Shown one piece after another: positions 8,983 to 33,319 of a DNA stretch of 34,214 nt. Under the pieces are notes generated by a model. It did not search any database. It was not told the DNA's origin and saw only the letters and a list, made by a program, of their open reading frames with translations. A program made the position numbers and the translations under genes. Positions within the stretch are counted from its first letter, which is position 1. Each line of letters starts with the position of its first letter. The stretch is from a virus: the IMG/VR virus record IMGVR_UViG_3300025450_001044, positions 1 to 34,214 of that record; one strand, given 5' to 3'.

Positions 8983-9005
8983 CTTGACTAACCACATAAG
9001 TTAAC

Positions 9006-10244
9006 TTATGCGTTGCGAGTATTGCCGTAGTGGATAACTTTTACAGTTTCACTACTCTTAAGTTTACGCCAAGGATCAACAATTACTGATCCTGGTGCAA
9101 TAGTGCAGTAAGGTTGGGTATCTAACTGGTCACCGGTGTATTCATAAGTAATCTTACGATTGTGTGCCCAAAGGAATACTGCTGGGCCGTCTACACTGGC
9201 TACAACTTCGCTGGGATCATCTGCCAATGGATCTACGTAAACAACTGGAACGCCAGCTTCTTTAACATAAAATCCAACCAATGTACTATAACTGCCAATA
9301 CAGTATTCAACATCTGGTTTGTAGGCTTTACCGTGAATAACAATGGGTAATCCAGTGGCCTTGCTTTGCTCAACTAAAAACAATCCTAAGTTTTTGGCTT
9401 GGATTTCACGAGCGTGCATAATGGTATCAAATAGATCATAGCCAATATCATAGTGTTCGGCTAACCAACGCAATGCAATGTTATCACGTGGATGGCAAGC
9501 ACCTGCATCGCCCATACCTGCTGTCATATACTTGGGACCTTGCAGTCTCATTGTACTACGAGCCAACGCATTGGTAACAACATCAACATTGATATTACCG
9601 ATCTTCATAGCAAAGTCTTGAATCATATTTACGATACCGACTTTAGCACTGATATAGGTGTTGTAGAAGATTTTGATAGCTTCACATTCGTCCCAAGTGC
9701 CGATTTCATAGCGTGGATCATTTTGCATAATTGTTTTATACAATGCAATCAACTCGCCAGCAATGCCAGTAAGTTCGCCATCTTCAGTACCGATAATAAC
9801 CATCTCTGGGTTGGCCATATCCCACTTAACACTACCCATGGCAATCAAATATGGATTGTACAGGAATTGGTGTTTTGGGTCCAACAACGTAATAAATTTA
9901 CTGCGTGTGGTACCAGGCAATACAGTACTGATCAGTACTACTTTTTTACTGCTGGTAGCGTGTTGATTCACTTTGTTGATAGCATCGATTACTGCATCGT
10001 GCCCAAAGTCTTTTGGTTCCATATGACTTGATGGCACACTACCGTCGTAGCCAGCAGCGTGTGGAGTTGGAACAGCAATAAAGATCCATTCGCTTTCATT
10101 TACCAATTCGTCGATATCACAGACTTTAACTGTGTCGCTGGTACGCGGGTAAATGTCATATCCACGCACTTCGTGCTTTTCAGCAAATACTTCGGCGCAG
10201 TCAAGACCCAGCTTTCCGATTCCAATAAATCCGATTTTTTTCAT
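9006..10244 (-). CDS. UDP-glucose/GDP-mannose dehydrogenase family enzyme
   Basis: 412 aa, typical family length. NAD-binding loop GIGKLG at 8-13, AVPTP (57-61), STVLPGTT (106-113), the ECEAIKIFYN helix with Lys191 and Asn195, and the catalytic Cys250 in MGDAGACHPRDN. The enzyme oxidises a UDP- or GDP-hexose twice at C6 to the uronic acid. The substrate (UDP-glucose, UDP-ManNAc or other) cannot be decided from sequence; the GACHPRD active site differs from the GGSCFPKD of classical UDP-glucose dehydrogenase. It has a sigma70-type promoter and a strong terminator, thus a single-gene unit. Its product could serve surface glycans or be a donor for the Agt-type enzyme at 18345-19337. Confidence 0.82.
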   Translation of the reverse strand: MKKIGFIGIGKLGLDCAEVFAEKHEVRGYDIYPRTSDTVKVCDIDELVNESEWIFIAVPTPHAAGYDGSVPSSHMEPKDFGHDAVIDAINKVNQHATSSKKVVLISTVLPGTTRSKFITLLDPKHQFLYNPYLIAMGSVKWDMANPEMVIIGTEDGELTGIAGELIALYKTIMQNDPRYEIGTWDECEAIKIFYNTYISAKVGIVNMIQDFAMKIGNINVDVVTNALARSTMRLQGPKYMTAGMGDAGACHPRDNIALRWLAEHYDIGYDLFDTIMHAREIQAKNLGLFLVEQSKATGLPIVIHGKAYKPDVEYCIGSYSTLVGFYVKEAGVPVVYVDPLADDPSEVVASVDGPAVFLWAHNRKITYEYTGDQLDTQPYCTIAPGSVIVDPWRKLKSSETVKVIHYGNTRNA

Positions 10245-11524: not shown

Positions 11525-11737
11525 ATGAGTCGTCATAAAGTAAAATCACATAATTGGATTGAAGGAATTTTAAGAACTGAAGAGTTTTTGTTTGATAGTA
11601 TAGAAGAAGCAATGAACTATGCTACTACTTCGGCCCATCACGTAGTAAAAGTATACAACGAACACGGAGAGCTAGTACACAATGCACAAAACGCTCCGGT
11701 TCCGGATACTATGTCAGCGGAGTTGGCCTACGCATGA
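11525..11737 (+). CDS. 70-aa protein of unknown function
   Basis: 70 aa. AAGGAGAATCGCACA precedes the ATG and the stop overlaps the desaturase ATG as ATGA, so it is translated with it. One small alpha/beta domain is likely (helix EEAMNYATTSAHH, then strand VVKVYNEHGELVHN). Short proteins with this strand pattern occur in many T4-like phages; no function known to me. Confidence 0.6.
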   Translation: MSRHKVKSHNWIEGILRTEEFLFDSIEEAMNYATTSAHHVVKVYNEHGELVHNAQNAPVPDTMSAELAYA

Positions 11738-12444
11738 TAGAAACAGTAATATATACTCTTGTAGTAACACACATTACTATTGTTGCTGTTACTTTATATT
11801 TGCATAGAGGAATGGCACATAGAGGTATAGATTTTTCTTTTCTATTAGAACATTTTTTTCGTTTTTGGCTATGGCTAACAACAGGTATGGTTACCCGTCA
11901 ATGGGTAGCAGTACATCGCAAGCATCATCAATACTCAGACAAAACAAAAGATCCGCACAGTCCAAAAGTCTATGGCATTTGGAATGTGTTGTTTGGCGGA
12001 GCATTGCTTTATAGTAAGGCAGCCAAAGATAAAAAGATGGTAGACTTTTATGGCCGAGGATGCCCTGACGATTGGATCGAACGTAATGTATATACACCCT
12101 ATAACTTCTACGGCATCATTTTAATGTTATTGATCGATTTGGCACTATTCGGACCTTGGGGAGCAGTTGTTTGGGGCATTCAAATGATATGGATCCCATT
12201 TTGGGCCGCAGGAGTTATCAACGGATTAGCTCATTGGGTTGGCTATCGCAACGGTAGCACTAACGATAATAGTCATAATATATCTCCGCTTGGCATTATT
12301 GTTGGCGGAGAAGAACTTCATAACAATCATCACCTTAATCCAGCAAGTGTGAAACTAAGCCGTCGTTGGTTTGAGTTTGATATTGGGTATATGTGGTTGC
12401 GTATTTTTTGTCTACTCAGACTTGCAAAAATAGTCCAGCGTTAA
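11734..12444 (+). CDS. Fatty acid (acyl-CoA type) desaturase
   Basis: 236 aa, shorter than cellular delta-9 desaturases (about 280-330) but with all histidine boxes of the diiron membrane family: HRGMAH (24-29), HRKHH (61-65), NGLAHWVG (163-170) and HNNHH (196-200). Hydrophobic segments surround them (1-20, 38-58, 122-140, 145-165), giving the usual four-helix membrane topology with both active-site loops in the cytoplasm. It would introduce a double bond into acyl chains and raise membrane fluidity. Translation is coupled to the 70-aa gene. The stop overlaps that of the convergent LamG gene by 4 bp (TTAA). A phage-borne desaturase fits the lipid theme of the PlcP/Agt operon. Confidence 0.88.
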   Translation: MIETVIYTLVVTHITIVAVTLYLHRGMAHRGIDFSFLLEHFFRFWLWLTTGMVTRQWVAVHRKHHQYSDKTKDPHSPKVYGIWNVLFGGALLYSKAAKDKKMVDFYGRGCPDDWIERNVYTPYNFYGIILMLLIDLALFGPWGAVVWGIQMIWIPFWAAGVINGLAHWVGYRNGSTNDNSHNISPLGIIVGGEELHNNHHLNPASVKLSRRWFEFDIGYMWLRIFCLLRLAKIVQR

Positions 12445-13151
12445 CTTGGTGTAAACGGACTGTCTGGCTGCCATATAACAGCTGACGAATTATCATAAAC
12501 AATTTTATTTGTCCCACTGGAATCCAGTGTTAAAAATTCCGGAGTTTTTGCCAATAACAATAATTTACTAGCAGATATAGGTTGTATAGGACTATGCGGT
12601 GGAGTAAAATTACCAGTGTATATCGCGGTCCCATTTACAAAATGAAAATTAGTCAATGCTCCGTGGAATCTTGTCAGCGATTGATAAGCCAAATCGACCC
12701 CAATGTACAAATAGTCAGACATATCTGTAACATCGGTTGAGTCTGCTACAGTTTTTAATCCGACCCCGTCTTGATACACAGTAAGCTGGCCGGATGCTCT
12801 AACAACAGCATAGTGATGCCAGTTTTCATACCACCCTGAAGGTAACGGAGTAGACAGTACATCCACTCCATTTAATGTGACTATAAAATTATCTAATTCT
12901 GTATGTACACTGATTGCAGAAGATGGATAACTACCTATTGTAAATATCCTGGGAAAAGCTCCGGCATCATTGTCAAATTGATAATGAAACCATTCAATGG
13001 TAAAATCATTAGTTCTAACTGCCCAGTCTGAACTTGCAGGTACACGCAAATACTCATCATCCAAGGTAAAGTAAAAAGACCCGCCAGTGGTTACCAATGG
13101 GTGGTCGTTGTGCAAAGTTACATTAGTTGCTTGTAGTCCGCGAATATACAT
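12441..13151 (-). CDS. LamG/concanavalin-like lectin-domain protein
   Basis: 236 aa. A LamG-type beta-sandwich covers residues about 20-195: GGSFYFTLDDEYLRVPAS, FTIEWFHYQF, a strand-turn FIVTLNGVDVLSTPLP, the hallmark ENWHHYAVVRASGQLTVYQDGV, and ALTNFHFVNGTAIYTGNFTPP. Such domains in phages are found on tail fibres and head decorations, where they bind glycans. No signal peptide, so a virion role is more likely than secretion. No Shine-Dalgarno precedes the ATG at 13151; a TAAATA element ends only three bases upstream, too close for a normal late promoter. Confidence 0.75.
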   Translation of the reverse strand: MYIRGLQATNVTLHNDHPLVTTGGSFYFTLDDEYLRVPASSDWAVRTNDFTIEWFHYQFDNDAGAFPRIFTIGSYPSSAISVHTELDNFIVTLNGVDVLSTPLPSGWYENWHHYAVVRASGQLTVYQDGVGLKTVADSTDVTDMSDYLYIGVDLAYQSLTRFHGALTNFHFVNGTAIYTGNFTPPHSPIQPISASKLLLLAKTPEFLTLDSSGTNKIVYDNSSAVIWQPDSPFTPS

Positions 13152-13305: not shown

Positions 13306-13872
13306 TCATTTATTGGCTAATGGATTGTCAATAGCCTTTTGAATCTTACTATCAACATCTCTATTGAGTTTTTCTAACTTGGCTTCTGTGGTAGATTTTA
13401 GCTTGTCCATATCACTACGAACTTTGTCCAAATCATCACGTACATCTTTACGCATAGCACGGATTTCTGAATCTGTTGAACGCATTGTTTCTTTTGTACT
13501 ACGTTCTACAGTTTCAGTCACTGACTCGTTACGACGGATATCATTTTTCAAATCATTCTTGATATCGCGAGTATAATCATTGGTTTTGCCCAATGTTTCT
13601 TCGATTACTGCTAAACGTTTATCATACCCGCTCAAATCTGGAGCTGAATATTCAGCAATCTTTTTCTTCATATTCATATAATCTTGATATACTTGAAAAC
13701 ATCCGTATAATCCGCCCAGTAACGAACTTGCTAATGTAAATGCTACCATTAGTTTTGCTGGAGTAAATTCATATCCACCAATACTGATTACAGTATCTTT
13801 ACTAGCATATTTTTTTACTGCTTCTTCTGCTTGGTCAATTGTTGCATTGACATCTTTAATTTCTTCTGACAT
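13306..13872 (-). CDS. Coiled-coil membrane protein
   Basis: 188 aa. A short acidic N-terminus (1-35), a hydrophobic segment at about 39-62 (KLMVAFTLASSLLGGLYGCF), then a long charged coiled coil from 75 to 185, rich in Arg, Asp, Lys and Glu with heptad-like spacing and alternating KND/RND repeats. The last gene of a three-gene operon, starting one base after the stop of the 821-aa gene with AGGAG in the preceding codons. With the coil presumably on one face of the membrane it could scaffold or span the envelope for the two secreted partners. No family recognised. Confidence 0.65.
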   Translation of the reverse strand: MSEEIKDVNATIDQAEEAVKKYASKDTVISIGGYEFTPAKLMVAFTLASSLLGGLYGCFQVYQDYMNMKKKIAEYSAPDLSGYDKRLAVIEETLGKTNDYTRDIKNDLKNDIRRNESVTETVERSTKETMRSTDSEIRAMRKDVRDDLDKVRSDMDKLKSTTEAKLEKLNRDVDSKIQKAIDNPLANK

Positions 13873-13873
13873 A

Positions 13874-16339
13874 TTATTCTCCTATTTTATATTGCATATC
13901 TAACATCTGTTGATATACACGATCGCTGGCCATTTGTCTTAATGCTCTTACGTTATCTACTGTTGATTGATTGGTGTAGACTTCTTTGGGTGCATAAAAT
14001 TGTGCATCTTTCAATGCTATATTGTATGCGTCGAAACCTTTAGGTTGTGTGGCCATTGCTTCTAATCTAACTCCGCCGGCCAGTTCATTTTGCTGAGCGT
14101 TTTTATTCACGGAATCTCCGCGTTGCTCTATATTGTTTTGCATCATTTCAAATCTTTGTTGCATTATCATTTCTGACAATGGATTACCAGCTCGGCCTAT
14201 CCCGCCAAAACTGGCTACTTGTATTTGCGGTGCTTCAATTTCAACAGTTTTTGTTTCGTTACGGAATTGATAGGTAGGAGCAGATTGCTGAATAACCATA
14301 CTAGAGCTTGATGCTACCAGTGGATTATACATAAACGGATTTCTACTAATAGCCAATCCAGTTCCACTGCTGGCTTGTGGGCTAATTTCCAGTGCTGGAG
14401 GCACAGAGGGTTTTTGTACTGCAACTGCCGTTGCCGAAGTATCTGTTTGCTGTTGAGCAGCGGTATACGATTGTGTAATTTGAACTAAGCTATTATAACT
14501 TTGAGTTTGTACTTGTTGTGTTTGCTGATCTTGTTGCATTGCCTGCTGAACTACTCTACTGGACTGTTGCGGTGTTTGTTGACTGGACGATTGTGCCGAT
14601 TGTTGCTGAGATTGGCCAGTCTGAATAGTTTGGAATGATGCTTGTGTAGTTTGACTAGAAAACTGTGCTGCAGCTTGTGCACTATTAGCACTCATATCAT
14701 TCAATGATGCTATTGCGGCGCTGGCAGTTGCTTGAGATTGTTGTGTACTTGCGTCTACAACTTTTGCAGCATTTTGTACAGCCATTTGTTGCGTTGCTTT
14801 GTCTTTTTCTTGTGCAGACTTTAATACACTCATTGCTAACTTGCTAGGACCAGAACCGGAATTGGCAGATCCAGATGAGCTTGAGCTAGACGATGCGGTA
14901 GTCTGAACTGGGCCGCCAGCTGGTGTTGGTGTAGTAGATGCTGGTTGGGCAGGATCTGCAGGCGCTGATGCAACTGCTGATGATTGTGATGAATCTGAAC
15001 TTGCTGGTGCAGCTGGGGCTGGAGCAGATTGAGCAGGAGCTGGACTTGCAGTAGCAACAGTTGCTGGACTCGGTGTTGCTAATGCAGGAGCCGCAGGAGC
15101 CGGTGTTGCTGCGGCCGTTGCAATTAAAGTTTTTGCATATGCTGCTCCGTAGCCTGGACAACTAGGGCTAGACAATGGATTAACTATACAAGGGTCAGGT
15201 TTGTATAACGCATTAACAAACATATTTTGAACCGCCGCATTACCTGTGGTCGACGCACCCATTGTAAATGTGCCTAAAGATAATGAATTTGTTGTTGAGG
15301 GAAGTAAGAATTGATAAGACACATTTTCCGCAGTATTAGGAGAACTTCTACTCTGTGAGGCACTGTAAACCACATTATTACTACTGTCAGTTAATCGTAC
15401 TCTTACTTCAGCAGTTGGATTGTTAGTTAAGTAGGCTCCGCAGGTAAAAGCATTATCCCAACTTACACATTCGTTGGTCCTTGTTCCGTTACCTAAACTA
15501 TAATTATAACCATAGTTAAAACCGTACACATCGACGCCGGCTCCGGAGCTTTTAAGTGCTGTGTTGATAGCAAATGAATTGTAAACTATATTGCCGTTAG
15601 ACATTAAATTTGGATTCAACAGGTTGCCGCTGGTTACTATATTGTTAAATCCTGCGCAGGTTGGTGCGTAAGCAGGATTAAGTGTACAAGGATCTACTCT
15701 ATATTTTAGACTAAAACTAACATTAGTAATTTCTGGTCCGTAAGGCCCTACCCAATAATTTGTATCACGACCTATAAATCCTACCTGAGCGTTGCTATAG
15801 TTTGTGGCCGCTATGGGATTACTAAATGTTTCTGTAAAATTAAATTGAGTCCAGTTGTATTTGTTGTTAGTGTATTGCCCGTAATCATAAGTGGCTGCTA
15901 AACCACCACTTGCATTGTAAAATTTAACATAGGCATCTAGATAGTCTTGTTGTCCATTGTCCCAGCCATTTCCGTTCTTAGCACGGAATCCAAAATTGAA
16001 TCCGCTAAGTTGAACACCTGAACCACCAGCAGCCAGTGCGGCATTAATATTAACAATTTGATTTAAGTCTGTTTGTCCATAACTAAAGTTGATCATGCCA
16101 TAGCCATTAGCGTTAACCCTAGGAAGAGGACCACAATAGCCTGGATTTCCAGCAGCCCAACAGGTCAATGATCCGCCGAACTGACCTACATTGTTCCAAT
16201 TACCAGTCGTAGCTGTAGGTGTACCGGTAAAATTTATTAAATTACCAGTAGTCGAATCAACTTGTGCATTAGAAGTGGAATAACTTAAACACAGCCATAC
16301 CAAGCAAAGCGCCAAGGCCAATATTTTTCTGATTGTCAT
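13874..16339 (-). CDS. Large secreted protein with duplicated N-terminal domain and Q/S/A-rich stalk
   Basis: 821 aa. Signal peptide 1-26 (ending TSNAQ). Two related beta-rich domains of roughly 190 and 160 residues follow; each describes strands rich in Asn/Tyr/Gly (SGFNFGFRAKNGNG; VYGFNYGYNYSLGNG) and ends in a Cys pair motif, RVDPCTLNPAYAPTCAG and KPDPCIVNPLSSPSCPG. Then a Pro/Ala/Ser linker (about 395-500), a long Gln/Ser/Ala helix-forming region (500-640) and a C-terminal 180 residues without Cys. The start overlaps the previous gene by 71 bp, with GAAGGAAA before the ATG. The design suggests an exported fibre or adhesin-like protein; in a phage it may coat or alter the host surface. Family unknown to me. 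Confidence 0.6.
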   Translation of the reverse strand: MTIRKILALALCLVWLCLSYSTSNAQVDSTTGNLINFTGTPTATTGNWNNVGQFGGSLTCWAAGNPGYCGPLPRVNANGYGMINFSYGQTDLNQIVNINAALAAGGSGVQLSGFNFGFRAKNGNGWDNGQQDYLDAYVKFYNASGGLAATYDYGQYTNNKYNWTQFNFTETFSNPIAATNYSNAQVGFIGRDTNYWVGPYGPEITNVSFSLKYRVDPCTLNPAYAPTCAGFNNIVTSGNLLNPNLMSNGNIVYNSFAINTALKSSGAGVDVYGFNYGYNYSLGNGTRTNECVSWDNAFTCGAYLTNNPTAEVRVRLTDSSNNVVYSASQSRSSPNTAENVSYQFLLPSTTNSLSLGTFTMGASTTGNAAVQNMFVNALYKPDPCIVNPLSSPSCPGYGAAYAKTLIATAAATPAPAAPALATPSPATVATASPAPAQSAPAPAAPASSDSSQSSAVASAPADPAQPASTTPTPAGGPVQTTASSSSSSSGSANSGSGPSKLAMSVLKSAQEKDKATQQMAVQNAAKVVDASTQQSQATASAAIASLNDMSANSAQAAAQFSSQTTQASFQTIQTGQSQQQSAQSSSQQTPQQSSRVVQQAMQQDQQTQQVQTQSYNSLVQITQSYTAAQQQTDTSATAVAVQKPSVPPALEISPQASSGTGLAISRNPFMYNPLVASSSSMVIQQSAPTYQFRNETKTVEIEAPQIQVASFGGIGRAGNPLSEMIMQQRFEMMQNNIEQRGDSVNKNAQQNELAGGVRLEAMATQPKGFDAYNIALKDAQFYAPKEVYTNQSTVDNVRALRQMASDRVYQQMLDMQYKIGE

Positions 16340-17666
16340 CGAATTTTTCCTTCTCTTCTAATTTAGGTAATTTTTCTGGATTAGCTTCCCAGGCAGCCTT
16401 AGCTTGCTCGCCAATTTTGCCTTCATAAGGACAAGGTGTACCAGCTGACATCATGGCATCAAATACACGACGATCTTGACACATAGTAGCAACTGCAGCT
16501 ACTTTCATACCCATATCATAAAGAGTCTTTGATAGCTTTAAGCGTTCACAGTTCAAATCATGAATAGTACCGCCTGTGCTTACACCAAAGATTTGTGTTT
16601 GTACTGACCCACTGGTACCGGTAGTACATAAATCTTGATTACCACCACTCATCATAGCGGGTGCTACTGCAGTGGGAGGAGGTTGAATGACACGCTGAGT
16701 AATATCACTGCTATTGATATTGTTGTTTGTTAATGTACCACTTTGTATATTTTGATTAACATTAGTGTTGGCATTAGTGCTTGTACTTTGATTTACATTA
16801 TTGTTATTATTTGTCATTGTACCGTTATTGGTATTTTGATTGATGTTTGTCATAGTACCAGTATTAATGTTATTATTTGTATTGCTAGTGGTAGCAGTTG
16901 TAGTATTAACATTATTATTGTTGTTATTATTGGTCATTGTACCATAATTGTAATTGGTATTAGTAGCAGTACTGGTATTTTGATTGATATTTGTCATTGT
17001 ACCGTACTGATAGTTTGTATTAGTACTTGTACTGGTATTGACGTTATTATTATAATTTGTATTAGTACTGGTACTAGTATTGACATTATTGTTATTGTAT
17101 GTCATTGTACCACTATTAATATTGTTATTTGTATTAACGTTGGTGCTGGTACTTGCACTAACATTGTTATTGTTATTATTGTATGTCATTGTACCGCTAT
17201 TAATGTTGTTATTTGTATTAACATTATTACTTGTGCTAGTACTTGTACTGGTGTTGACGTTATTGTTATTATTTGTCATTGTGCCAGTGTTAACGTTATT
17301 ATTATTAAACGTTTGTGTACCACTATTAACGTTATTATTGTTATTGGTATAGGTAACACTACCACTCATAACATTGTTATTGTTATTATTGTTGGTCATT
17401 GTACCACTATTAACGTTGTTATTTGTATTAACGTTGGTACTGGTACTGGTTACTGCGGTGTTGTTATTGTTCGTAATAGTACCACTATTAACATTATTTG
17501 TGTTAACAGTGCTTACACTATTACTACTACTATTGGTATCCACTAGACTAGTAGATCCATATCCGCCGGACAGAGAAGAACTTTGGTTTATGGTATTAGC
17601 TGTTTGCGCTGTTACCCCAAGGGCAAACAATGCAGAAATACCCATCATTATTATTTTTTTTATCAT
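16269..17666 (-). CDS. Secreted Asn/Thr-rich repeat protein
   Basis: 465 aa. Signal peptide 1-20. Residues about 45-330 are almost only Asn, Thr, Ser, Val and Gly in imperfect units of the type VNSGTMTNNNN and VNTSTSTN; such alternation would fit a beta-solenoid or amyloid-like fibre, comparable in style to curli subunits though not a clear match. The C-terminal 115 residues are ordinary, with four Cys (LCTTG, LNCERL, TMCQD, TPCPY) and a final hydrophobic segment GLGALLGMAVFKLF. GGAG lies 7 nt before the ATG, a late-type box 34 nt upstream. The last 71 bp also encode the signal peptide of the 821-aa protein in another frame, so the two must be co-translated. Confidence 0.65.
   Translation of the reverse strand: MIKKIIMMGISALFALGVTAQTANTINQSSSLSGGYGSTSLVDTNSSSNSVSTVNTNNVNSGTITNNNNTAVTSTSTNVNTNNNVNSGTMTNNNNNNNVMSGSVTYTNNNNNVNSGTQTFNNNNVNTGTMTNNNNNVNTSTSTSTSNNVNTNNNINSGTMTYNNNNNNVSASTSTNVNTNNNINSGTMTYNNNNVNTSTSTNTNYNNNVNTSTSTNTNYQYGTMTNINQNTSTATNTNYNYGTMTNNNNNNNVNTTTATTSNTNNNINTGTMTNINQNTNNGTMTNNNNNVNQSTSTNANTNVNQNIQSGTLTNNNINSSDITQRVIQPPPTAVAPAMMSGGNQDLCTTGTSGSVQTQIFGVSTGGTIHDLNCERLKLSKTLYDMGMKVAAVATMCQDRRVFDAMMSAGTPCPYEGKIGEQAKAAWEANPEKLPKLEEKEKFDDNQKNIGLGALLGMAVFKLFHF
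16730..17530 (-). repeat. Low-complexity Asn/Thr/Ser codon repeat tract
   Basis: About 800 bp of irregular repeats built from GTTATT, ATTATT and TGTCATTGTACC units (plus-strand view), coding for the Asn-rich part of the 465-aa protein. Units differ at third positions, so the repeat is old or selected at protein level. Two open plus-strand frames here are by-products. Confidence 0.8.
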
Positions 17667-17700
17667 TTGATTGCTCCAATTTGGTAGGTCTTACCAAAAT

Positions 17701-17708
17701 TATTTATG
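17701..17708 (-). promoter_or_regulatory. Late-type box CATAAATA
   Basis: CATAAATA on the minus strand, 34 nt upstream of the ATG at 17666; would drive the three-gene repeat-protein operon. Confidence 0.55.
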
Positions 17709-18344: not shown

Positions 18345-19337
18345 TTACATATTGATTAAATTATTCTTAAATATTTCCCAAGCACGATCCCAAGTCCAAC
18401 GCAAACTACCTTGGTATACACGATTTCTGTTTAATTGTAAACAAGCTGAAACTGCATCTTCTAAATTTTCGTTTATGAATCCAGTTTCTCCTTGGTCTAT
18501 TACATCTGCAGGTCCTTGGCAAGGATAAGCGGCAACAGGAGTTCCGCAGGCCATTGCTTCGATCATAACAATACCAAATGTTTCCCACCGACTAGGAAAA
18601 ACAAACACTTCGGCATTGGCATAATAAAGTGCTAACTCAATCCCGGTCCTAAACCCGGTAAATGTTACGTCTGGATACTGTGCTCGATAAGTTTCCAGCA
18701 TAGGACCATCGCCTACCATTATTTTTGCATATCCAGGGTAATCTAATTCAAAAAATGCTTCTAAGTTTTTTTCTTTGCTAACACGGCTTACACACAACAA
18801 ATACTTTCCCGGAAAATTTTCTCTCAGTTCGGGTTTGAAAATATCACGGTCAACCCCACGTGTCCAAGGAACTATTTCTCCGTCAAATCCGTGTGCTTTT
18901 AATTCGGCTACCATACTGTCAGTAGTGGTTAATACTTTACCGCTATGCTTATGAAACCAGCGTACAAATCTCCAGGTAAGTGATTCGGGAATCCCAAATA
19001 GTTTGTTTAACCCTTCAGGAAACTTAGTATGATAAGCGGTATTGTGCCTAATATTATGTAATGAAAGATGCCTTCTAGCCCACAGACCCAAAGGACCCTC
19101 TGTCGCGATATGGATATAATCCGGATTGATCTTCGCAATCTTCTTGCCCAAATTCCTGGGATAGCTAATCTTGACTTCGTTGTAGCCAGGACAACTAATG
19201 TAGCTGAACCACCCGGGATGCAGCACCACAACGTTATAACCGTCCAGAATCGCAAGTTTCTCAATATTTTTATATGTTGTGACAACGCCATTTATCTGCT
19301 CCGGTAAGTTGTCTGTGATTATTAGAATGGTTTTCAT
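18345..19337 (-). CDS. agt: GT4 glycosyltransferase, Agt/diacylglycerol glycosyltransferase type
   Basis: 330 aa. GT-B fold with all landmarks of the GT4 group that includes the PlcP-linked lipid glycosyltransferase Agt: ITDNLPEQINGVVTTY (9-24), HIATEGPLGLWARR, TAYHTKFPE, VRWFHKH, PWTRGVD, a donor domain starting YLLCVSRVSKEKN, and the EX7E motif in RWETFGIVMIEAMACGTPVAA. Agt transfers glucose or glucuronate from a UDP-sugar to diacylglycerol at the cytoplasmic membrane. Its ATG overlaps the stop of the ATP-grasp gene as ATGA, and the PlcP-type gene stands two genes upstream. Related GT4 enzymes mannosylate phosphatidylinositol or build LPS; the pairing with PlcP is what favours the lipid-remodelling role. 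Confidence 0.78.
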   Translation of the reverse strand: MKTILIITDNLPEQINGVVTTYKNIEKLAILDGYNVVVLHPGWFSYISCPGYNEVKISYPRNLGKKIAKINPDYIHIATEGPLGLWARRHLSLHNIRHNTAYHTKFPEGLNKLFGIPESLTWRFVRWFHKHSGKVLTTTDSMVAELKAHGFDGEIVPWTRGVDRDIFKPELRENFPGKYLLCVSRVSKEKNLEAFFELDYPGYAKIMVGDGPMLETYRAQYPDVTFTGFRTGIELALYYANAEVFVFPSRWETFGIVMIEAMACGTPVAAYPCQGPADVIDQGETGFINENLEDAVSACLQLNRNRVYQGSLRWTWDRAWEIFKNNLINM

Positions 19338-20218
19338 TGAATCTTAAATTTCACATATTCCGTAATAATGTCAGCAACATTAACACTGCAATATTTTTCA
19401 AACCCAGCAAAGCCTGGATTACTATTAGCTTCGCATACACGGAATCCGCGTTTGTCAAATAATAAATCAATTCCTGCAATGTCTAGATTTAATACTCTGG
19501 AAGTTTCACGAGCTAGATATTCTATTTCTTCTGTTAACGGATAGTTCTCTCCAGTGCCGCCATTGGTAATATTAGCACGGAAGTCGCCGTCGGGTGCAGT
19601 ACGTTTCATGGCACCTATCACTCGTCCTCCCACTACTAGTACACGCAGATCTTCTCCGGGGTGATCATTTAGATATTCTTGTACAATCATGGTTTTCTTA
19701 TTACCTAGATTGTCGATAAATTCCATTAATTTTTTATAGTCACGCTTACGTTCACAGAGATAAACACCTTCACCGTAACTGCCAGTAACCACTTTGACTA
19801 CGCAAGGAAATCCAATATTTGCTTCTACCAAACCATCGTCGATAGGTAATCTTACCATCATGGTGTTGGGGATAGGAATACTGGCTCTGCTTAAAATTTG
19901 GCTACTGCGCAATTTGTCTTTGACAATTTCGATGGGCAAACTACCGTTGATACAAGGAACACCTGCTTGTTCAAAATGTCTTACTACTGCTAACTGGAAT
20001 GGTAGTATACCTGCTCCTAACCTAACCAATACAAGTTTAGGTAGTTCCATATCCTGGCCTTTGTATTTGATGCCTTTGCGGATATCTCTATCCACGATAA
20101 TATCAAAATCATCTGGGTGGCCCATCACGGCATTGATTCCTTTTTCAGCAAAGGATTCTACTAGTTTGTTTGATTCGTATTCGTTACGATCCAGTTTTGT
20201 TAATATCAGTACTGTCAT
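19334..20218 (-). CDS. RimK-like ATP-grasp ligase
   Basis: 294 aa, close to the 300 aa of E. coli RimK. ATP-grasp landmarks: VKDKLRSSQILSRASIPIPNT (start of the ATP-binding domain), FPCVVKVVTGSYGEGV (lysine plus flexible glycine loop), IVQEYLNDHPGEDLRVLVVG, RTAPDGDFRANITNGG, and the metal-binding EANSNPGFAGFEKY, equivalent to EVNASPGLEGIEK of RimK. RimK adds glutamates to the C-terminus of ribosomal protein S6; family relatives ligate other amino acids or make glutamate-containing cofactors, so substrate is open. It overlaps PlcP by 35 bp and Agt by 4 bp, so it is translated as part of the lipid-remodelling operon, although no lipid role for this family is known to me. Confidence 0.82.
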   Translation of the reverse strand: MTVLILTKLDRNEYESNKLVESFAEKGINAVMGHPDDFDIIVDRDIRKGIKYKGQDMELPKLVLVRLGAGILPFQLAVVRHFEQAGVPCINGSLPIEIVKDKLRSSQILSRASIPIPNTMMVRLPIDDGLVEANIGFPCVVKVVTGSYGEGVYLCERKRDYKKLMEFIDNLGNKKTMIVQEYLNDHPGEDLRVLVVGGRVIGAMKRTAPDGDFRANITNGGTGENYPLTEEIEYLARETSRVLNLDIAGIDLLFDKRGFRVCEANSNPGFAGFEKYCSVNVADIITEYVKFKIQ

Positions 20219-22473: not shown

Positions 22474-23019
22474 TTAGAATGAACGTGTGTAGCTTACATT
22501 GTAGCTGTGATTTGTGCTGTCGCCTGTTACACGGTCGAAACGAACGCCAATTGCGTCTTTCTTTGTAACTGCATAACTAACACCAGCACGAGTTGTACGT
22601 GTAGCATCTAAATTGGCTTCATTGAACGCATCACGGAAGCGGAATCCAACTTTAGCAGTCACTGCACCGATTGTGTATGTAACACCTGGCTCAACACTAT
22701 AGTAACCAAAGTGCGTAGTGTTAGTGAACTTGTCACCAGCAGCTACACGAGTATAAACACCAACAGGACCAACTGGCATTGCCAATGTTAAACCTGCTTC
22801 ATCACGTGTTGAAAGAGCGTGGGTACCAGCAGTAGTATATTGCGTAGAACCTACATCAACTGTCAACATTTTGTTTAATGATTCACGAACAGTAATTTGG
22901 CTGTTTGTTGAGTCTGTAGCACCTTTGTCACCAATTTGATTTTGGCCTTCTAGTGTAACTGACGCAGCAAATGCTGATCCTGCCAATGCGATTAAACTTG
23001 CGATTACGATTTTTTTCAT
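22474..23019 (-). CDS. Outer-membrane beta-barrel (porin-like) protein
   Basis: 181 aa from the ATG at 23019, chosen because AAAGGAAA lies just upstream and the frame begins a clean signal peptide (MKKIVIASLIALAGSAFAA). The mature part alternates strands with polar and hydrophobic residues, and the chain ends SYTRSF, with the C-terminal Phe signal for the BAM complex. At about 162 mature residues it suits an eight-stranded barrel. It is smaller than trimeric porins. A phage-encoded outer-membrane protein may block superinfection or change permeability; this is inference. A late-type box lies upstream and a strong terminator behind it. Confidence 0.7.
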   Translation of the reverse strand: MKKIVIASLIALAGSAFAASVTLEGQNQIGDKGATDSTNSQITVRESLNKMLTVDVGSTQYTTAGTHALSTRDEAGLTLAMPVGPVGVYTRVAAGDKFTNTTHFGYYSVEPGVTYTIGAVTAKVGFRFRDAFNEANLDATRTTRAGVSYAVTKKDAIGVRFDRVTGDSTNHSYNVSYTRSF

Positions 23020-23067
23020 TTTTAGATTTCCTTTGTTAAATGACACATTTGTCGTGTACATATTATA

Positions 23068-25058: not shown

Positions 25059-25517
25059 TTACTTGGTAAATGTGATTGCAATTTTCTTGGGTTTTTGTTC
25101 TTCGGGAACAATCAACTCAAGTGCAACACTCAAAATACCGTTTTGAACTGTTGCAGCACGCACTTCTACGTTTTCCGCTAGGGGGAAATTACGTGTAAAG
25201 TTGCGGTTGCTAATACCTTTGTGTAGATATTTCAATTCTTTGGTATCGTCTTTTTTTGATTTCTCAGCTCTTTCACCTTTTACGGTTAAGATATTTTCTT
25301 TGAGTTCCACATCGATCTCATTTTGCTTGAAACCGGCAACTGCAACTTCTACCACAAAATGTGTGTCATCCAATTGGATTACATTATGCGGAGGATAGTT
25401 ATCCGAAGTACGATTAGAAGCAAAGCTACGCTCTAATTCTTCAAACATACGGTCGAAACCGATAGCGTGACGATGTAAAGCAGGTAAGTCGAGAGTTTGG
25501 AATGTAAATTGTGTCAT
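25059..25517 (-). CDS. hsp20: Small heat shock protein Hsp20 (IbpA type)
   Basis: 152 aa from the ATG at 25517, which has AAGGAG seven bases upstream; the longer frame to 25574 lies in the leader. The N-terminal arm TFQTLDLPALHRHAIGFDRM matches IbpA-type proteins; the alpha-crystallin domain covers about 35-135 with VVEVAVAGFKQNEIDVEL and NGILSVALE; the C-terminal IAI is the IxI oligomerisation motif. It holds unfolding proteins in soluble form; in cyanophages Hsp20 is a common, probably scaffold- or host-protein-protecting gene. The promoter combines sigma70 and late features, so it may be made throughout infection. Next to clpS. Confidence 0.93.
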   Translation of the reverse strand: MTQFTFQTLDLPALHRHAIGFDRMFEELERSFASNRTSDNYPPHNVIQLDDTHFVVEVAVAGFKQNEIDVELKENILTVKGERAEKSKKDDTKELKYLHKGISNRNFTRNFPLAENVEVRAATVQNGILSVALELIVPEEQKPKKIAITFTK

Positions 25518-25554
25518 GTTTTTCTCCTTAATAAGCAAGTATGACGTTTGAAAA

Positions 25555-25579
25555 TGTAGACCCCACCCGGGCATCTACA
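25555..25579 (-). other. Hairpin in the hsp20 5' leader
   Basis: TGTAGA and TCTACA arms enclose a GC-rich loop with further CCC/GGG pairing. It lies within the 66-nt leader, 37 nt before the ATG, and does not cover the ribosome binding site, so a thermosensor role is uncertain. Confidence 0.3.
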
Positions 25580-32743: not shown

Positions 32744-33319
32744 CTATTCCTTATAGAAAATGTGTTGACCTATTTGAGCAAGTTTTTCTTTATGCCAACC
32801 TGGGTTGATGTTGGCAGCGTGAAAATATAACGCTTGATTTAAGCTGGGCAATCTAAAGTTTTCCAATAAAACTTTTTTGGCCACTTCGGCACTTTCTGCG
32901 TACATCTGTGGGTAAACTGGGTGTGTTCTAAAATTGTTTTCACAGGCCCAAGAGAATTGGCAAATGACTTTTTCGTACATTATGTTCTTTTGGTAAACAA
33001 CCCCACAAACACCAGTGCCAAATCTGCCACTGTTAACGCGGTTCATAGTGACCTGTGCAACCGCAACCTTGCCTTCAAAAGGCTCACTACCGGCTTCCCA
33101 GTAGATGTTCTTGGTTAAACAGTCGAGTTGTTTAGTACGTTCTGCAGCAGTTACTACAGCAGCGTCCTGATGAGACATCGTCTCACGTAAATGATTCAAT
33201 TTGTTTTCTGTTACTGCTACTAGCACACTGGAGCAAATAAAAAATCCAATGGCTAACAAAAGTAATTTGGTTGAAAGAATCACTCGATTATAATAGATAG
33301 TTGATACAGCTGACGCCAT
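32744..33319 (-). CDS. SleB/CwlJ-type cell wall hydrolase (endolysin)
   Basis: 191 aa. A hydrophobic segment at 17-37 (LLLLAIGFFICSSVLVAV) acts as signal anchor, so the enzyme is exported by the host Sec system, like a SAR endolysin. The SleB/hydrolase_2 domain covers 65-190: LTKNIYWEAGSEPFEGKVAV with catalytic Glu75, VTMNRV, VCGVVYQ, CQFSWAC, ALYFHAANINPGW and IGQHIFYKE. It cleaves peptidoglycan glycan strands. AAAGGAAAAAT lies before the ATG. A TATAAATT box 27 nt upstream suggests late expression, as expected for lysis. Confidence 0.88.
   Translation of the reverse strand: MASAVSTIYYNRVILSTKLLLLAIGFFICSSVLVAVTENKLNHLRETMSHQDAAVVTAAERTKQLDCLTKNIYWEAGSEPFEGKVAVAQVTMNRVNSGRFGTGVCGVVYQKNIMYEKVICQFSWACENNFRTHPVYPQMYAESAEVAKKVLLENFRLPSLNQALYFHAANINPGWHKEKLAQIGQHIFYKE

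Follow-up and report, generated by a model that had tools for sequence, protein, structure and literature searches.

The described systems closest to the locus analysed in this study are the Rz/Rz1 spanins, the curli modules of pelagiphages, tandem glycan-binding proteins and a set of hypothetical proteins of Pelagibacter and Roseobacter phages. The locus comprises three consecutive minus-strand genes, here named A, B and C, in a 34,214-nt stretch of viral DNA that was analysed as a whole and is called the window. Rz/Rz1 spanins resemble A-B-C in their late, envelope-spanning design, a one-helix coiled-coil membrane protein, overlapping genes and, in some phages, a shared operon. A-B-C differs from them in having three genes, no lipoprotein and a glycan-binding-like head, and in being present alongside Rz/Rz1; no Rz1-type lipobox was found in A or B of the window, and separate Rz1 genes adjoin the cassette elsewhere. 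The size and topology of C would be compatible with a class III holin of the T4 T type (one helix, a large C-terminal periplasmic domain and a lethal pore), and no holin match was found for C in PHROG.

Pelagiphages carry curli (type VIII secretion) genes, the purpose of which is debated (PMC7029224, PMC9599517, PMC9004378). Like A-B-C, the curli modules supply an exported, envelope-targeted repeat protein in related aquatic phages, but A-B-C has a predicted inner-membrane coiled-coil protein and a glycan-binding-like B instead of CsgG, CsgF and the curlin repeat. Membership of A-B-C among the curli systems was rejected: Pfam matched none of the three proteins, and neither a curlin repeat nor CsgG or CsgF was found among the window ORFs scanned, all but a few small ones. 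The modelled head of B has the same tandem beta-sandwich fold as SGBP-B and the CBM22 tandem of Xyn10C, from which it differs in sequence (~9% identity), in its phage origin and in being joined to a conserved C-terminal segment.

The same A domain is present in Pelagibacter phages HTVC115P, HTVC023P, HTVC202P, HTVC033P, Mosig and Baldr and in Roseobacter phages CRP-810 and CRP-207 (phrog_20531). In most of these records the A domain is followed by a protein at the B position and a C protein ending in NPL, all of them hypothetical proteins. These phages differ from the window in the short spacer of A (~20-65 aa) and in B, frequently a protein of 190-610 aa containing an acidic linker. Two C-like genes occur in HTVC115P (positions 13914-14276 and 14619-15047 of its locus), the first without the NPL end. 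In the portion of the literature on related isolates reached by keyword search, no function was given for the A, B and C genes and no virion proteomics was found.

Gene A (16269-17666, minus strand) encodes 465 amino acids comprising a signal peptide, an Asn-rich repeat, a 100-aa C-terminal domain with four cysteines and a hydrophobic C-terminal helix. Gene B (13874-16339, minus strand) encodes 821 amino acids with a signal peptide, two beta-sandwich domains, a long low-complexity linker containing a predicted helix and a conserved C-terminal segment, and gene C (13306-13872, minus strand) encodes 188 amino acids with a single membrane helix and a coiled coil. The genes A and B share 71 bp (16269-16339, minus strand), where the tail of A and the signal peptide of B are read in two different frames, and a single base (13873) separates B from C. 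These ORF coordinates agree with the sequence-only reading, which had described a 465-aa protein with a repeat of about 285 Asn/Thr/Ser/Val residues, the 71-bp overlap and the start of C one base after B. Shine-Dalgarno-like sequences occur at every start codon (TTGGAG, GAAGGA and AGGAG). Among the related loci the A/B overlap measures 60-90 bp in 70 of 126, the commonest length being 65 bp; these lengths rest on mechanically picked starts, and the gene calls in the loci were likewise mechanical.

Gene A is preceded, at a distance of 35 bases, by a late-type promoter box, CATAAATA (17701-17708, minus strand). It differs by one base from TATAAATA, the T4 late-promoter consensus. The late-type box proposed from the window alone is strongly enriched across the family: of 135 related loci, 49 have NATAAATA in the 110 nt ahead of A, against a frequency of 1.6% in random windows and 7.3% upstream of other ORFs. 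This enrichment supports late expression of the cassette in many of the phages carrying it.

Separate searches of IMG/VR with the A-domain profile and with the C protein gave at least 598 and at least 566 confirmed stretches; the related loci used here are the nearest relatives among the matches listed. Loci fetched by C alone with at least 4 kb upstream had a same-strand A in 68 of 68 cases, and those fetched by A alone with at least 4 kb downstream had C in 58 of 58. The claim that the three proteins belong together is borne out by this synteny. Since the order A-B-C recurs in all testable related loci, the arrangement is not due to chance; the loci share ancestry, so that these counts are not independent tests. 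A-B-C is thus a conserved cassette, shared by several hundred or more phage contigs of freshwater and marine origin. A is single-copy in all 48 long contigs, and the cassette also occurs in pelagiphages, roseophages and contigs of up to 525 kb. A tblastn search with A matched 11 of 50,697 phage records, mostly Pelagibacter and Roseobacter phages and only through the last ~100 residues; most of these records have a gene at the B position and a C-like gene downstream of A, the gene order being kept at low identity. One 354,429-base contig is partly syntenic with the window (67-82% DNA identity in pieces), and the window may therefore be part of a much larger phage.

A cellular origin of the cassette was considered and rejected. 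The matches comprised 25 bacterial or archaeal genome contigs, all of them from metagenome-assembled or single-cell genomes and mostly short, so that phage contamination is likely. A distant copy of the A domain lies on a 2.5-Mb Variovorax replicon (9001-9246 of locus L225), without an annotated gene or a recognisable cassette.

No convincing Pfam, NCBIfam or PADLOC family was found for A, B or C. A matches phrog_20531, a family of unknown function, over its C-terminal domain (residues 242-429, E=4.7e-13). A-B-C is covered by no named family. Nor is the layout peculiar to this phage, as GenBank isolates encode it as hypothetical proteins.

Analysis of 112 loci revealed large differences in conservation along the three proteins. 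The helical C-terminal domain of A (residues 330-430; 16377-16679, minus strand) contains four invariant cysteines and has a mean pairwise identity of 0.74; its core is modelled by AlphaFold2 as helices with pLDDT 84-94 (residues ~391-430). It is followed by a hydrophobic helix (residues 447-463 in the AlphaFold2 model; 16278-16328, minus strand) that overlaps the start of B, and such a tail is present in 79 of 135 family members. The model of A gave no PDB fold match, and its BFVD matches are unnamed or uncharacterised viral proteins. The C-terminal segment of B (residues 741-821; 13877-14119, minus strand; consensus FYxPKxxYxNQxxVDNxR) has an identity of 0.36 with 94% of columns aligned, and was also recognised by eye in pelagiphages. 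In C the N-terminal region, the membrane helix and the C-terminus have identities of ~0.7; the helix, assigned by hydropathy (residues 41-59; 13696-13752, minus strand), lies in a conserved region with an identity of 0.70. C ends in the motif NPLANK in the window (13309-13326, minus strand), and in 140 of 141 distinct homologues it ends in NPL (NPM in one) followed by 0-5 residues. Judged by this conservation, the core of the cassette is the four-cysteine domain of A, the C-terminal segment of B and C with its terminal Asn-Pro-Leu.

Consistent with the proposal of two exported proteins and one membrane protein, a signal-peptide-like N-terminus was found in 126 of 135 A and 126 of 132 B proteins and exactly one membrane helix in all 129 C proteins, as counted by simple hydropathy tests; A and B of the window have N-terminal hydrophobic segments. 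Mature A has four cysteines in 120 of 135 proteins and most C proteins have none, which fits export of A. By the charge rule the coil of C is predicted to be cytoplasmic in 99 of 129 proteins; lambda Rz likewise breaks this rule. With respect to anti-phage defence, the PADLOC matches were confined to weak ones between the coiled coil of C and ZorA or similar proteins.

The B model consists of two confident beta-sandwiches, a long linker of low confidence that includes a predicted helix, and the short helical C-terminal segment. The first beta-sandwich, a carbohydrate-binding-like domain (residues 27-220; 15680-16261, minus strand), was identified by Foldseek in a model with pLDDT mostly 85-97, and its mean identity is 0.31 across the 112 loci. 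The second (residues 236-390; 15170-15634, minus strand), likewise assigned from the model and Foldseek, is missing from most relatives, with only 9% of columns aligned across loci. The best Foldseek matches of the head are tandem glycan-binding proteins (SGBP-B, E=3.9e-7; CBM22 tandem, E=4.4e-7), and with its high model confidence the head has the beta-sandwich fold of a carbohydrate-binding module. Pfam found nothing significant in B of the window and almost no carbohydrate-binding or other named domain in 62 B proteins. From the modelled fold we infer that the head of B may bind glycan.

Association of the cassette with lysis genes varied among the phages. About 10 loci encode an Rz-like spanin, an Rz1-like spanin and a GH19 endolysin followed by A-B-C, the endolysin gene stopping at the start of A or slightly beyond it, and in pelagiphages an amidase, an M15 peptidase or a GTA-type holin adjoins or lies near the cassette. 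Among 48 long contigs, the 38 with a detectable GH19 or PF07486 endolysin placed it within 5 kb of A in 8 cases, against 5.9 expected, and general linkage to lysis genes was rejected. Many large phages have a GH19 endolysin 20-25 kb from the cassette on the opposite strand. Some lineages thus have a real link to lysis, and others have none. In this respect the window is like the phages with a distant endolysin, as the sole candidate found, a PF07486 cell wall hydrolase (32744-33319, minus strand; E=2.3e-24), lies ~15 kb away. The first gene after C encodes a membrane protein in 58 of 116 loci, compared with a background of 24%.

Tentatively, we favour the reading that A-B-C is a late complex, anchored in the envelope and binding glycan, with a role at lysis or egress. 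The three proteins would form a complex that is made late and placed in the envelope of a Gram-negative host. C would sit in the inner membrane. A would be exported, contributing a disulfide-type helical domain, often a hydrophobic tail, and an Asn-rich region serving as a spacer of adjustable length. B would also be exported; its conserved C-terminal segment would dock to A, to C or to both, and a host surface or cell-wall glycan would be bound by the variable N-terminal head. Such a complex may help to breach the outer layers or may free progeny from host glycans.

The same head and anchors could serve a surface complex of mid or late infection that masks host glycan receptors, leading to superinfection exclusion or preventing progeny from re-adsorbing to debris, with the head of B matched to the host and A and C as the anchor. 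A variable, glycan-binding-like head on conserved anchoring parts is what this explanation expects, linkage to endolysins is not general, and sugar-modifying genes lie near in the window, namely a glycosyltransferase (18345-19337) and a UDP-glucose dehydrogenase (9006-10244). However, the late-type boxes, like the operons with Rz, Rz1 and endolysin, point to the final stage of infection, and exclusion proteins are, to our knowledge, usually single and small rather than a fixed three-gene cassette. Receptor masking is rather unlikely on this evidence. Also in this part of the window, a RimK-like ATP-grasp ligase gene (19334-20218, minus strand; Pfam E=4.5e-48) adjoins a metallophosphoesterase gene and the glycosyltransferase. 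Further along are a weak, below cut-off match to a Gram-negative porin end (22474-23061, minus strand; PF13609, E=1.2e-4) and an HSP20 small heat-shock protein gene (25059-25574, minus strand; E=2.7e-20).

The repeat of A (residues 41-325; 16692-17546, minus strand) bears on whether the cassette makes an extracellular fibre or amyloid, with a purpose like that of the pelagiphage curli genes, such as aggregation or capture of neighbouring cells. Asparagine accounts for 39% of the repeat and N, T, S and V together for 80%; its autocorrelation is 0.43 at lag 28 and 0.42 at lag 12, compared with a maximum of 0.33 across 1000 shuffles. Long antisense ORFs over the repeat, among them one of 267 aa (16743-17546, plus strand), are by-products of the Asn codons. 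AlphaFold2 models residues 78-290 as regular short strands of ~7-12 residues (pLDDT ~60-76). Regular stacked short strands, a repeat of up to ~500 aa in relatives and the existence of phage-borne curli modules (PMC7029224, PMC9599517) speak for a fibre. Against this, the confidence of the repeat model is moderate, it has no PDB fold match, the curli components were lacking among the window ORFs scanned, and 41 of 135 relatives have fewer than 60 aa ahead of the A domain, so that the repeat is dispensable. A fibre is thus improbable. The stretch before the domain ranges from ~35 to 524 residues among relatives, the repeat itself from absent to ~500 aa, and only 36% of its columns aligned across the 112 loci; when the linker reaches at least 100 aa, it has at least 25% Asn in 85 of 89 cases. 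As the repeat varies in length while the domain is constant, the system does not centre on the repeat. The Asn-rich repeat is the most variable part of the cassette, probably a spacer of evolvable length. The sequence-only reading had offered two outcomes, an envelope structure built in the host and an extracellular fibre; the first is the class that the results favour most, and the second is weakly supported, the repeat being dispensable.

In several phages the genes ahead of the cassette are for tail fibres or fibre assembly, and in the window C is directly followed by a LamG/ConA-like protein (12441-13151, minus strand) that matches parts of baseplate and virion families; both would suit A, B and C as virion proteins of a tail-fibre or spike assembly. 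The signal peptides of A and B and the membrane helix of C, however, misfit assembly of virions in the cytoplasm, and PHROG structural-family matches for the three proteins are only weak, low-complexity or coiled-coil. A tail fibre or spike would be expected to match structural families and to lack an export signal; A and B match no structural family, and most have signal-peptide-like N-termini. A virion assembly is very unlikely, and the host-envelope reading fits better than the tail-fibre reading. The same region of the window has a fatty acid desaturase gene (11734-12444, plus strand; PF00487), an unusual auxiliary gene that other phages, too, have close to the cassette (cluster 13). Hardly probable at all is a spanin-like outer-membrane disruptor strictly replacing Rz/Rz1, for which the one-helix membrane protein with its coil, exported partners, overlapping genes and lysis neighbours in some phages would speak, but A and B of the window have no lipobox and Rz and Rz1 are encoded beside the cassette in ~10 loci, so that A-B-C is not a replacement there and strict replacement was rejected.

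Returning to the envelope-anchored glycan-binding complex, a broader interpretation is possible, if doubtful: A-B-C may represent a new class of envelope machine that phages build from an anchor in the inner membrane, a spacer of variable length and a glycan-binding head that can be exchanged. Many aquatic phages would use it when infection ends, alongside holin, endolysin and spanins. At least 598 IMG/VR stretches contain the cassette but just 11 of 50,697 phage records do, so that cultured model phages have left it unnoticed. Cultured pelagiphages and roseophages carry A-B-C, and the cassette is therefore directly testable. If a role in lysis or egress is true, phage release from SAR11 and other abundant aquatic bacteria would require components not seen in the classic models.
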